This document shows, piece after piece, positions 7,689-37,108 of a stretch of DNA of 64,000 nucleotides. The position numbers were made by a program, and so were the translations under genes. The notes under the pieces are model-generated. The model saw only the letters and a program-made list of their open reading frames with translations. It did not search any database and was not told the origin of the DNA. Within the stretch, counting starts at the first letter, position 1. Every line of letters starts with the position of its first letter. The DNA comes from Ktedonobacteraceae bacterium (GTDB lineage: Bacteria > Chloroflexota > Ktedonobacteria > Ktedonobacterales > Ktedonobacteraceae): contig DASRBN010000018.1 in NCBI GenBank assembly GCA_035653615.1, positions 1 to 64,000 on the forward strand, given 5' to 3'.

Positions 7689-8327
7689 ATGTCGTCAGAG
7701 GAAATTCTGAAGGAGATCGCGGCGGAGGTCTCGACTTGTGCCAATTGCGATCTCTGCAAAGCCCGTACCAGGGCGGTACCCGGTGAGGGCAATCCCCACG
7801 CGAAAATCATGTTCATCGGCGAAGGCCCCGGTTATCAGGAAGACAAGCAAGGGCGCCCATTTGTCGGCCCCGCCGGTCAATTCCTGGACGAGCTACTCAA
7901 GAGTATTGATTTGAAGCGCCAGGACGTTTTTATCACCAACGTGGTAAAGTGCCGCCCGCCCGAAAATCGCGACCCCCATCCACAAGAGATTGAAGCCTGC
8001 AGCGATTATCTTACCCGGCAGATCGCCGCCATCAAACCGCAGGTGATCGTCACGCTTGGCCGTCATTCGATGGCGCGATTCTTCGGCAGTGAGAAGATCA
8101 GCGCTATTCACGGGCGCGCGCGCAAGGTCGATGGACAACTGGTCATCGCCATGTATCACCCGGCCGCCGGCCTGCACCAGGCCAGCCTGAAGGATACCAT
8201 CCGCGCCGATTTTAAGAAAATCCCCACCATCATCGCCGAAGCCGAACGTTTAGAGGCCGAAGGCAAGATGAGGGCTGAACCTCCTAAGCCCAAAGAGGAA
8301 CCACCGCAGCAGCTATCGCTGTTTTGA
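7689..8327 (+). CDS. Uracil-DNA glycosylase, family 4 ([4Fe-4S])
   Basis: A 212-residue base-excision repair enzyme that removes uracil from DNA. The CANCDLCKAR segment near residue 17 supplies two cluster cysteines, with others at CRPPENRDP and CSDYL. The GEGPGYQEDKQGRPFVGPAG active-site motif and the C-terminal YHPAAGL (motif 3 position) are diagnostic of family 4/5 enzymes. Length and architecture are normal, with a Pro-rich tail. The start follows AAGAGGC. It converges on a hydrolase gene across a long bidirectional terminator. Confidence 0.92.
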   Translation: MSSEEILKEIAAEVSTCANCDLCKARTRAVPGEGNPHAKIMFIGEGPGYQEDKQGRPFVGPAGQFLDELLKSIDLKRQDVFITNVVKCRPPENRDPHPQEIEACSDYLTRQIAAIKPQVIVTLGRHSMARFFGSEKISAIHGRARKVDGQLVIAMYHPAAGLHQASLKDTIRADFKKIPTIIAEAERLEAEGKMRAEPPKPKEEPPQQLSLF

Positions 8328-8404
8328 AGAAGAGAGGGATTGATCATGGCGAACTTACGGCTCTGCTGTAAGTTCGTCATGATCAATCCCTCTCTTCTTC
8401 AAAA
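8322..8404. terminator. Long inverted repeat, bidirectional terminator
   Basis: Between two convergent genes, TTTTGAAGAAGAGAGGGATT and its complement AATCCCTCTCTTCTTCAAAA bound a nearly perfect palindrome of more than 80 bases, with inner arms GAACTTAC/GTAAGTTC. Each arm ends in a T-run for one direction, which suits termination of both genes. Its size exceeds a usual terminator. Confidence 0.8.
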
Positions 8405-8407
8405 CAA

Positions 8408-9379: not shown

Positions 9380-9434
9380 TTTCTTTCTCCTAGCAGTAAG
9401 TTTTGTGTACGTAACGAAATAAGCAGCAACATCA

Positions 9435-9497
9435 GATTCTTCGCTGCGCTCAGAATGACATGCCCAGATCATGTCATTCTGAGCGCAGCGAAGAATC
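9435..9497. repeat. Palindromic dispersed repeat (CATTCTGAGCGCAGCGAAGAATC family)
   Basis: 27-base inverted arms at 9435-9461 and 9471-9497 enclose a 9-base loop. It lies upstream of the hydrolase gene. The same core recurs at 7612, 30883, 36903 and 40843. When translated it gives the spurious string CHSERSEES. Confidence 0.9.
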
Positions 9498-9892
9498 TCA
9501 AACCTCAACCCGGAATCTGTATAAGGCTTCCCCTACCATCATACGTAGGCCGTCAAATGGCGCTTAATGTAGAATGCCTTTTGTAATTTTCTCCAGGCGA
9601 GGAGATTACCCTTACCTTGCTGCACTTCCCCAGCAGTAGTATCTGAAAACCGCCTCGTAATATACCATGTGTCCCCAGGAAAATGCAAACACCGGTACCG
9701 GTTGGCAGCATCTTAACTTCTATAATTGACATATCCTTCAGGAAAAGTTTAACCAGGATTTAACAAGGCTTAACATATCCATAAAGCATAGTTAATCAGC
9801 CCATGATACGTTATGAGTGCGAAGGTAACAGGCGGTTAAATTCCCAGTTGCCACCAATATAAAGCAAGTAGATAGGTCTATTAGGAGGACCC
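9498..9892 (+). promoter_or_regulatory. pstS upstream region with PhoP-box-like direct repeats
   Basis: Three TTAAC direct repeats occur at about one helical turn: TTTAAC 9748-9753, TTTAAC 9759-9764 and CTTAAC 9769-9774, with a further CTTAAC at 9713-9718. This matches the TT(A/T)ACA repeats bound by PhoP/PhoB in Gram-positive-type phosphate regulons. A plausible -10 lies near 9788-9795. The rest of the 395-base gap shows no gene. Confidence 0.7.
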
Positions 9893-30813: not shown

Positions 30814-31113
30814 GCGTCAATTCCTGGTGATTCCCAGCATTCCCCAGGACGAGCGGATCCCACGCGGCCTCAGGAGCACGCGAGATTCTTCACTGCGCTC
30901 AGAATGACAGGCCCCGGACACAGCCGGTTGTGTCCGGGGCCTGTCATTCTGAGCGCAGGAGCCGAAGCCCTGAGCGCAGCGAACGGGGAAGAAATCTCGG
31001 TCCATCTTCTGGAAACTTATAGACAGGATAGCGATGTTTAGGATATAGTAAAGAGCAAATAAACCGGTGTTTCCAGAAATAACCCTTTCCCCGTAGAGAA
31101 AGGCAAGGCGACT
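30814..31113. repeat. Gap carrying a 28-bp perfect palindromic dispersed repeat
   Basis: Arms 30894-30921 and 30930-30957 are perfect complements with an 8-base loop; they contain CTCAGAATGACAGG and its complement. Flanking parts (30883-30893 and 30961-31000) are degenerate pieces of the same CATTCTGAGC family. It follows the kinase pair and could end its transcript. Nothing else is seen in the gap. Confidence 0.9.
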
Positions 31114-34874: not shown

Positions 34875-35486
34875 TCACCCCTTGACGCTCTGTACTATGC
34901 GGAGAAAGTAGTTATGGAAACGTGGGTCTCCCGAAACCTCCGGGTGAAATGCCGTACCGAGTATGGGTCCTTGACGGACGGCGACGATGGATCCATCGTC
35001 GAGCGTTGCCAGCACCTCTACCTCCGGGCCTACCTCCTCGATGACGGGGCCGCGGATGAAGAATGCGTGGAATGGCGCTTCTCCTAATACCGGCACAGAA
35101 AGATCAGTCTCGAAACTTTCCCGCTGGCTGCCAAACGCATTACGACGAACGCGAATATCCAGAGTGGCCAGCAAAGGCTGGCCTGCGAGTGCGTTTTCCG
35201 TCTCCCGCGCTAGTAAGATCAATCCTGCACAGGTTCCCCAAACGGGGAAGCCTTCCCGAATCCTTTGTCGTATCGGTTCCTGCAAACCGTACAACACCAT
35301 CAACTTGCCAATCGTGGTACTTTCACCACCTGGTATTATTATACCATCTAATTCGTCCAAATGCACCGGTAGTCGAACAGCTTTTGCCTCAACTCCGAGT
35401 TCGGCGAGCATTTTCATATGGGCCTCAAAATCACCCTGCAATGCCAATACACCGATACGCACTGTTTTTGAGTTTGACGTTGTCAT
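34875..35486 (-). CDS. pdxT: Pyridoxal 5'-phosphate synthase glutaminase subunit PdxT
   Basis: A 203-residue class I-type glutamine amidotransferase that supplies ammonia to PdxS for vitamin B6 synthesis. GVLALQGDFEAH, IIIPGGESTTIGKL, the nucleophile Cys in GTCAGLILLA and the His/Glu of GTAFHPEVSGD are all present. ATG 35486 is taken as the start with GAAGGCAGG upstream; the frame extends to 35525 through the hairpin arm. It lies immediately after pdxS, its obligate partner. Confidence 0.95.
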   Translation of the reverse strand: MTTSNSKTVRIGVLALQGDFEAHMKMLAELGVEAKAVRLPVHLDELDGIIIPGGESTTIGKLMVLYGLQEPIRQRIREGFPVWGTCAGLILLARETENALAGQPLLATLDIRVRRNAFGSQRESFETDLSVPVLGEAPFHAFFIRGPVIEEVGPEVEVLATLDDGSIVAVRQGPILGTAFHPEVSGDPRFHNYFLRIVQSVKG

Positions 35487-35502
35487 AGTATACCTGCCTT
35501 CG

Positions 35503-35570
35503 TAAAGGTTTTCTACATCATGCATCCCAGCCAGGAACCTGACTGGGATGCATGATGTAGAAAACCTTTA
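35503..35570 (-). repeat. 28-bp perfect hairpin between pdxS and pdxT
   Basis: Arms 35503-35530 and 35543-35570 are perfect complements with a 12-base loop, filling nearly the whole intergenic space: five bases after the pdxS stop and 17 before the pdxT start. No T-run follows in the direction of transcription. It may be an RNase III or stability element, or a mobile palindrome. Confidence 0.92.
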
Positions 35571-35575
35571 CCGTT

Positions 35576-36463
35576 TCACCATCCGCGCCGTGCCATCAGT
35601 TCCTGCTCGGGCAGTTGATCCAGGTTAATACCTACCATCGGCTCACCCAGGTTTCTGGACACCTCGGCCAGGATTTCAGGGTCCTGGAAATGAGTCGTCG
35701 CGCGCACAATCGCCTTGGCGCGCGCTAGCGGATTGCCCGACTTAAAAATGCCTGAGCCAACAAAGATACCCTCGGCTCCCAAACGCATCATCAATGCGGC
35801 ATCAGCCGGTGTCGCCACGCCGCCCGCGGAGAAGTTCACGACCGGCAGCTTGCCTTTTTCCGCGACCTCGCGCACCAGCTCGTATGGCGCGCCAAGATTC
35901 TTGGCCTCGGTCATCAACTCTTCTTCTGGCAGCATTTGCAGGCGGCGAATTCCGTCCATAATTGCTCGCATATGCCGCACTGCTTCGACGATGTTGCCCG
36001 TTCCGGCCTCGCCCTTGGTGCGAATCATAGCCGCTCCCTCGCCGATACGCCGCAGCGCCTCGCCAAGGTCGCGCGCCCCGCACACAAATGGAACGGGGAA
36101 GAGATGCTTATTGACATGGAAACGTTCATCCGCCGGGGTCAGCACCTCGGACTCATCGATGCAATCTACACCGATGGCCTGGAGAATTTCAGCCTCGACA
36201 AAATGCCCAATGCGGCACTTCGCCATCACCGGAATAGTAACCGCCTCTTTAATCTGAATAATGAGTTCGGGGTCGCTCATGCGCGCGACGCCACCGTGCG
36301 CGCGAATATCCGCCGGCACGCGCTCCAGTGCCATCACCGCGGATGCTCCGGCCTCTTCCGCGATACGCGCCTGGTCCGCGTTCACCACATCGCAGATCAC
36401 TCCGCCCTTGAGCATCTCCGGGAAAGCGCGCTTGACATCTACTGTTCCTGTTTGTTTCTGCAT
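35576..36463 (-). CDS. pdxS: Pyridoxal 5'-phosphate synthase subunit PdxS
   Basis: A 295-residue (beta/alpha)8 enzyme that makes PLP from ribose 5-phosphate, glyceraldehyde 3-phosphate and ammonia. [44 protein letters not shown], the catalytic Lys in MAKCRIGH and [31 protein letters not shown]-type segments make it unmistakable. ATG 36463 is preferred; TTG 36469 is closer to the AGGAG site and possible. pdxS and pdxT form an operon. Confidence 0.97.
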
Positions 36464-37108
36464 AATCAATGGTCTCCTGGCTAATCAATTAGTGTATGAG
36501 TGTAACGTTTGTACTAGATTAGAAATATTGTATCATATCGGTTTGGGGGCCGCTACAGCCAAGTGAGGGTAAGAGTGCCAGCCATCAACGACCCTACCAT
36601 CTGTTAATCTTCGTCAATCTCATAATGAGTTTTGATAAATAGTCCGGCAATCCGGCGATGAATCGGCCCTACGGCTCTCCCGTAGGGGCCGATTCATCGC
36701 GCCCAGCGCCGATTGATCGGCCCCGCGTCCCTTACCACGGTAGTTTATGAACAACCATTATCCCTCATATCCATATATACAAACATGCCTGGGTGGATAT
36801 TACATTCCCTGTTTCGAAGATGGCGCTGCTTGCGGACGAGCTCCACGTAGTATACTTCTATGGGAGAGTATTGTTCTGATGATTCCCCAGGGGCTGGACA
36901 GAGATTCTTCGCTGCGCTCAGAATGACATGGCCCAGGATGAATGAGGGGGCAGAGATTCTTCGCTGCCCCCTCATTCATCCTGGGCCACCCCATCTGAAC
37001 TGACGGGCTGCTGAGGAATCCCTGGAGTGCCGGTTGCTTGAGATATAGCAGGATATTTGCTAGTATAAGCAACAACAAAATCACGCAAAGAACGGACGGA
37101 TCAGTAGC
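36464..37108. repeat. 645-base gap with two palindromic repeat elements
   Basis: No gene is supported here. At 36658-36741 lies a GGGGCCGAT-family element (GATGAATCGGCCC...GGGGCCGATTCATC), related over about 60 bases to 51811-51873. At 36903-36928 is a CATTCTGAGC-family core. At 36930-36953 and 36964-36987 are perfect 24-base inverted arms rich in CCCCTCATTCATCC. The pdxS and ybaK-like promoters must lie at the two ends. Confidence 0.8.

Follow-up and report, generated by a model that had tools for sequence, protein, structure and literature searches.

At 64,000 nt, the window, that is, the whole stretch of DNA analysed here, contains the genes for the two subunits of PLP synthase, pdxS and pdxT, and the space between them is occupied by a long palindrome. 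What does such a structure do at the junction of two genes, and how did its symmetry arise and persist? A sequence-only reading had described a perfect 28-bp hairpin at 35503-35570 and had suggested that it could set the ratio of the two subunits, by RNase III processing or partial termination.

Anatomy of the pdxS-pdxT hairpin

The hairpin was recovered by an inverted-repeat search, with a larger size and one imperfection compared to the sequence-only reading: it extends over 35502-35571 and is composed of two 34-nt arms, 97% complementary and separated by 2 nt. Twenty-nine unbroken outer pairs are followed by one mismatch and four further pairs, giving 33 Watson-Crick pairs out of 34. The sole mismatch, C/A on the plus strand, becomes G.U in the pdxST mRNA. 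The gap of 89 nt between the pdxS end (35576) and the pdxT start (35486), as previously read, includes in transcription order 4 nt, the first arm, 2 nt, the second arm, 15 nt and the pdxT ATG. The stem indeed fills the junction, with 4 nt left to the stop codon and 15 nt to the ATG.

Table 1. Features of the pdxS-pdxT region and a further stop-abutting palindrome of the window
Feature	Position	Strand	Basis
pdxT (start codon ATG, 35486), glutaminase subunit of PLP synthase	34875..35486	-	TIGR03800, 225 bits (cut-off 105.55)
pdxT leader past the stem, 15 nt, GAAGGCAGGTATACT	35487..35501	-	sequence
Hairpin 3′ arm (mRNA sense), adjoins pdxT	35502..35535	-	inverted-repeat search
Hairpin centre, 2 nt	35536..35537	-	inverted-repeat search and RNA fold
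Hairpin 5′ arm (mRNA sense), begins 4 nt past the pdxS stop	35538..35571	-	sequence and inverted-repeat search
pdxS, PLP synthase lyase subunit	35576..36469	-	NCBIfam: NF003215, 516 bits; TIGR00343, 484 bits
Class member with arms of 39 bp and a loop of 9 nt, in a convergent junction (distances to the two stops, -8 and +1 nt)	8320..8406		palindrome scan

Folding of the mRNA strand (121 nt) predicted a stem of -65.4 kcal/mol (z -9.93) with 33 paired positions and a 4-nt loop, GUUC. Since none of 200 shuffles folded as well, and since a mirror-repeat control gave 0 hits against 38 inverted repeats (see below), the hairpin is not due to chance. The 15-nt pdxT leader, which carries a weak Shine-Dalgarno-like AAGG/AGG (labelled as a ribosome site by eye), stays outside the predicted stem. 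In transcription order, no T-run comes after the stem, as had been noted from the letters: the next letters are GAAGGCAG, with 0 T in 8 nt (full leader in Table 1). An alternative pdxT start is covered by the stem, as also proposed, the lone upstream in-frame ATG (35525) lying in the 3′ arm. A pdxT promoter in the spacer was rejected: the search gave a single minus-strand match, whose -10 touches the ATG (2 matches compared to 2.2 expected). Rfam returned sub-threshold miRNA matches only, for this hairpin and a neighbouring one, of the sort that any long stem gives.

In the 6.59-Mb source genome, that of a soil bacterium of the Ktedonobacteraceae (Chloroflexota), a DNA search located the palindrome at one locus, with matches on the two strands, as expected of a palindrome, and no other genomic site resembled its 18-base core with fewer than 3 mismatches. 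No match in 46 further genomes from the order was better than E 0.02. Being single-copy in its genome and absent from these relatives, it is therefore not a simple mobile palindrome, the case that the sequence-only reading had named as fatal to its proposal.

Most single-copy palindromes abut stop codons

A first scan of 464 kb of the source genome for palindromes with a score of at least 18 gave 38 inverted palindromes and 0 in the mirror-repeat control. A wider scan (score of at least 20) covered 1,064 kb, or 16% of the genome, and returned 68 palindromes, of which 44 recur within the sample and 24 are single-copy, a term that applies within the sample and, for the pdx hairpin, genome-wide. 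In 20/24 single-copy palindromes an edge is 20 nt or less from a stop codon (distances -14 to +12), the remaining four being 31, 53, 74 and 190 nt away. In 300 random placements over non-coding sequence, 2.07 of the 24 on average, and never more than 7, fell within 20 nt. The single-copy palindromes are divided between convergent (12/24) and tandem (12/24) junctions, with none between divergent genes, in a sample comprising 117 convergent, 494 tandem and 114 divergent junctions (725 in total). Of the repeated palindromes in the same sample, 4/44 lay 20 nt or less from a stop, and 14/44 were divergent. These counts rely on our own codon-usage gene caller, whose starts are rough (the pdxT start was put at 35417) and whose stops are unaffected. 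They also depend on sorting: by motif, 31 palindromes were unique, two of them divergent; with BLAST, degenerate members of repeat families were reassigned to the repeated group, among them the two divergent palindromes, of which 36929-36988 is one.

Members of the single-copy class have arms of 23-39 nt and loops of 0-19 nt, and 18/24 are perfect, with 8 mismatches in 746 pairs overall. No shared motif was seen among them by eye. The 8 nt following their stems contain on average 2.93 T, and at least 5 T in 6 of 30 sense tails. In 10 of the 12 convergent cases the spacer is only 47-84 nt long, so that the hairpin makes up the spacer. A tandem member, C15:48949-49014 (L150:8949-9014), has a 3-nt overlap with the upstream stop, and 10 nt separate its end from the next ORF, which by eye resembles a MoaD-MoaE fusion. 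The pdx hairpin, 4 nt past the pdxS stop, lies within the same distance of about 20 nt.

C15:1-340000 contains 15 single-copy palindromes, and C30:1-300000 contains 0 that are single-copy and stop-abutting. C30 may be a different replicon or a foreign contig, or the class may be clustered.

The junction and the class in relatives

The relatives retrieved with PdxT belong to the Ktedonobacteraceae (Chloroflexota). We compared the pdxS-pdxT junction at 24 named loci carrying both genes (L039-L062). At 15 of them the spacer is short, from -3 to 50 nt, and at the other 9 it runs from 93 to 302 nt. No strong stem was found in the 15 short spacers (best -13.8 kcal/mol, folding being applied to those of 15 nt or more), and all nine long ones, of at least 93 nt, fold strongly (-31.8 to -78.7 kcal/mol, first 150 nt). 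The relatives' hairpins are unrelated in sequence to that of the window. That of one MAG (L056) is built of 20-nt arms and contains a single mismatch; a GC-rich hairpin is present at four Thermogemmatispora loci, followed in 3/4 by TCTTTTT, as judged by eye. The junction thus has acquired different stems several times, yet requires none, because 15/24 relatives have no strong stem there. The comparison of spacing that the sequence-only reading had suggested therefore gives a divided answer, with unrelated hairpins at some junctions and short spacers devoid of strong stems at most. Together with the attachment of the class to gene 3′ ends, those unrelated hairpins lend the sequence-only reading, which is partly supported overall, indirect support. 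A ratio device dedicated to pdx is not borne out, the same kind of hairpin standing behind many unrelated genes.

The palindrome class is patchy across relatives. Palindromes of all kinds with a score of 20 occur at 20 per 100 kb in K. racemifer and 8 in D. aurantiacus; Ktedonosporobacter and Thermogemmatispora gave 0 (100 kb sampled from each), as did 50 kb of E. coli K-12. In small samples (20-40 kb) of 12 further genomes, we found 3 in Ktedonospora, 3 in D. arantiisoli, 2 in D. kobayashii, 2 in G017, 2 in G030 and 1 in G051, and 0 in the other six. Loss of SbcD as a cause of palindrome tolerance was dropped as uninformative, sub-cut-off matches being present in 7/7 genomes with or without the class. 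Lack of Rho was ruled out, Rho being above cut-off in 7/7 genomes. Two Rho genes above the family cut-off and a shorter Rho-like one were recorded in the source genome (C19:242367, C8:5706, C1:23052).

Arm evolution in Ktedonobacter orthologues

Arm evolution was read in about 100 kb of three species of Ktedonobacter, a genus related to, and distinct from, that of the window: K. racemifer, K. robiniae (G016) and SOSP1-85 (G020). From 23 palindromes scanned per genome, 17 could be compared between G016 and G020, 8 between G016 and K. racemifer and 9 between G020 and K. racemifer, the others having no orthologous flanks, no centred hairpin or a length difference of more than 14 nt. Between K. 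robiniae and SOSP1-85, 147 of 1028 hairpin positions differ (14.3%) versus 4.3% in the flanks; the comparisons with K. racemifer gave 16.2 versus 6.8% (8 sites) and 14.5 versus 7.3% (9 sites). A within-species figure of 7.6% for G016-G020 takes in loops. Hairpins thus diverge two to three times as much as their flanks, pairing being kept.

Many orthologous hairpins are each near-perfect and yet differ by matching changes in both arms. At one site, TAAATATGTATGATTG... in K. racemifer corresponds to TAAATATGGATTGATTG... and TAAATATGCATTGATTG... in the other two species, and the second arm mirrors each exactly. At another, perfect hairpins with 41- and 36-nt arms between conserved flanks share only about 71%. 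Over 20 sites compared between G016 and G020, 459 pairs are unchanged and 25 carry two-sided changes that remain Watson-Crick. One-sided changes at these sites gave 9 G.U, 9 A.C, 14 other mismatches and 9 one-side gaps, and there were 3 two-side gaps; part of the mismatches stem from the alignment of replaced palindromes. Arm correction cannot be complete, since one-sided changes are frequent. Two-sided change by itself could also be produced by selection on an RNA stem; the arms do not evolve in strict concert, and part of the pattern might be due to selection for pairing.

Inverted centres were observed at three sites. At the first, cctatga/tcatagg are an exact 7-nt reverse complement, with 11/11 central bases matching when inverted and 6 uninverted; at the second, aaa/ttt, 11 bases match inverted versus 8 uninverted; at the third (G020:4951 and K. 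racemifer:4702, positions in the fetched stretches), 10 versus 7. According to PMC8794818, such inversions are a trace left by template switching or inversion. The pdx palindrome itself has near-perfect, unique arms, as a hairpin maintained by template switching would have.

Proposed function of the junction stem and its alternatives

We propose that the hairpin is a stop-abutting mRNA 3′-end or junction stem, whose symmetry is kept by template switching and which partly uncouples pdxT from pdxS, a reading to which we give about an even chance. Once the ribosome departs from the pdxS stop, a 33-34-bp stem would form in the pdxST mRNA. It would mark and protect the pdxS 3′ end, acting as a barrier to 3′-5′ decay, an RNase III cut site and/or a partial block to RNA polymerase. 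RNase III substrates are duplexes longer than about 20 bp, a length exceeded by the 33 pairs of the pdx stem, and the source genome carries two RNase III genes above cut-off. The pdxS RNA would then outlive the pdxT RNA, leading to more pdxS than pdxT RNA. We infer this RNA effect and its direction, as well as the action at the pdx copy of the process seen in Ktedonobacter. Near-perfect symmetry would be maintained at the DNA level, by template switching within the hairpin during replication and not by copying within a repeat family. PdxT would be translated from a separate ribosome site, located past the stem in the 15-nt leader, because termination-reinitiation fades at about 20 nt, according to PMC10666635, and the linear distance is 89 nt.

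A broader proposal is more tentative, and we think it possible without expecting it. Several Ktedonobacteria may end many genes with self-rewriting palindromes, in which arm changes are copied across, centres flip and turnover is faster than in flanking genes, selection keeping the palindrome as an mRNA 3′ end that does not depend on sequence. At pdxS-pdxT, such a palindrome would lie inside an operon and split it.

The main rival to the functional reading is a neutral by-product, which we judge doubtful while taking it seriously: template switching would have made the palindrome, tolerated since it folds up and brings the effective distance from stop to start down to 19 nt, near that of most relatives, with no regulation. 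Without the 70 nt of palindrome the spacer is indeed 19 nt (4 + 15), and 15/24 relatives have -3 to 50 nt; the pdxT leader is outside the stem; and one template-switch event can create a perfect hairpin (PMC8794818). If the ribosome sees the folded distance alone, the effect of the stem may be nil. However, divergent spacers and promoter regions should then be struck too, whereas 0/24 are divergent and 20/24 are at stops. Purging from promoters explains the former but not the tight placement at stops.

An ordinary intrinsic (Rho-independent) terminator or attenuator between the two genes is unlikely. The stem directly follows the stop, the class is enriched at convergent 3′ ends, the predicted transcript stem-loop is stable, and a hairpin followed by TCTTTTT is seen by eye in three of the four Thermogemmatispora spacers. 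Nevertheless, a U-rich tract is lacking, and a terminator scan gave nothing on the minus strand at the pdx junction. It also gave 0 for locus L055 of Thermogemmatispora, in which the loop is longer than the scan allows. Canonical terminator-like sites, found at 24/234 convergent ends of the genome, are defined by the T-run that the pdx stem lacks. Intrinsic termination is thus poorly supported, because no T-run is present here and few class tails are T-rich.

Insertion of a mobile palindromic repeat (REP/MITE-like) at the junction appears slightly less probable still. A high-copy palindromic repeat family does exist in the genome, and GTAGGG-type repeats are present at the pdxS-pdxT junctions of relatives L042, L053 and L062. 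This explanation is contradicted by the single copy genome-wide and the absence from 46 relatives, and no obvious target duplication was visible by eye at the edges of the palindrome. We consider very improbable a DNA-level element such as a cruciform, a topological buffer or a site for a dimeric protein; the 2-nt centre and the symmetry on both strands would suit it, but class members share no motif visible by eye and 0/24 lie between divergent genes. A fold-back chimera of assembly or library is hardly credible: artefacts consisting of perfect inverted copies are known and the assembly has 44 contigs, but an artefact would not be placed at stop codons, and the class recurs in other assemblies, at orthologous sites and including few-contig isolates (K. 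racemifer and D. aurantiacus).

Relation to known systems

REP elements and stable intercistronic stems could hold up 3′-5′ decay, giving an excess of upstream RNA. The pdx stem resembles REPs by its intercistronic position and differs in being single-copy, REPs forming repeated families. Inverted repeats past stop codons, template-switch hairpins and quasipalindrome correction are already known. In E. coli, inverted repeats with short spacers cluster just past stop codons, at mRNA ends, according to PMC6060812 (and the earlier Lillo 2002 cited there). Those repeats, of at least 8 bp, are described there as mostly intrinsic terminators; here, near-perfect arms of 23-39 bp are mostly followed by no T-run. 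Template-switch mutations create and maintain RNA hairpins, and the perfect stems, two-sided changes and inverted loops reported in PMC8794818 are all present in the Ktedonobacter orthologues. In that report the hairpins belong to RNA genes (rRNA, microRNA); here they lie behind protein genes, and these features are seen in Ktedonobacter rather than at the pdx copy. Imperfect inverted repeats likewise become more perfect by quasipalindrome template switching in E. coli (PMC7202029); this was shown in reporter genes, not as the condition in which natural hairpins past stop codons persist. Our literature search, which took in few subscription papers, found no bacterial set of long, single-copy, near-perfect stop-abutting palindromes with matched arm changes, and none for Ktedonobacteria.

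Taken for the pdx operon only, this is a modest finding. If the proposal is true, cultured bacteria (Ktedonobacter, Dictyobacter) would offer many natural sites at which the birth, correction and loop inversion of palindromes can be read by species comparison, and the origin and upkeep of perfect long stems would be directly testable there. At such sites mRNA ends may then be defined by a long stem that is independent of sequence and lacks a U-tract.

Other palindromes of the window and of relatives

A high-copy palindromic repeat built on CATTCTGAGCGCAGCGAAGAATC is present at 9434-9498 and 30893-30958 of the window and elsewhere in the source genome. Many copies hold a different, often distinct, perfect palindrome nested centrally (e.g. 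30893-30958), and a literature search by sequence for this repeat returned nothing relevant. In the divergent region upstream of pdxS, 36929-36988 forms a 25-bp perfect stem whose 10-nt loop, agattcttcg, is a piece of the CATTCTGAGCGCAGCGAAGAATC repeat, resembling a palindrome within a palindrome.

Dictyobacter arantiisoli (G009) contains an abundant palindromic repeat with TTTTCTACATCA, at 63 sites, most of them forming inverted pairs separated by about 25 bp. In the source genome this 12-mer occurs in the pdx palindrome and one other place only. Kinship through TTTTCTACATCA was dropped, about 0.4 chance 12-mer matches being expected (our own estimate, 155 kb). Finally, a 31-32-bp hairpin lies upstream of pdxS at 1784-1848 of loci L046 and L047; between K. 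racemifer and Ktedonobacter sp. SOSP1-85, its arms are the same and its centre is different.
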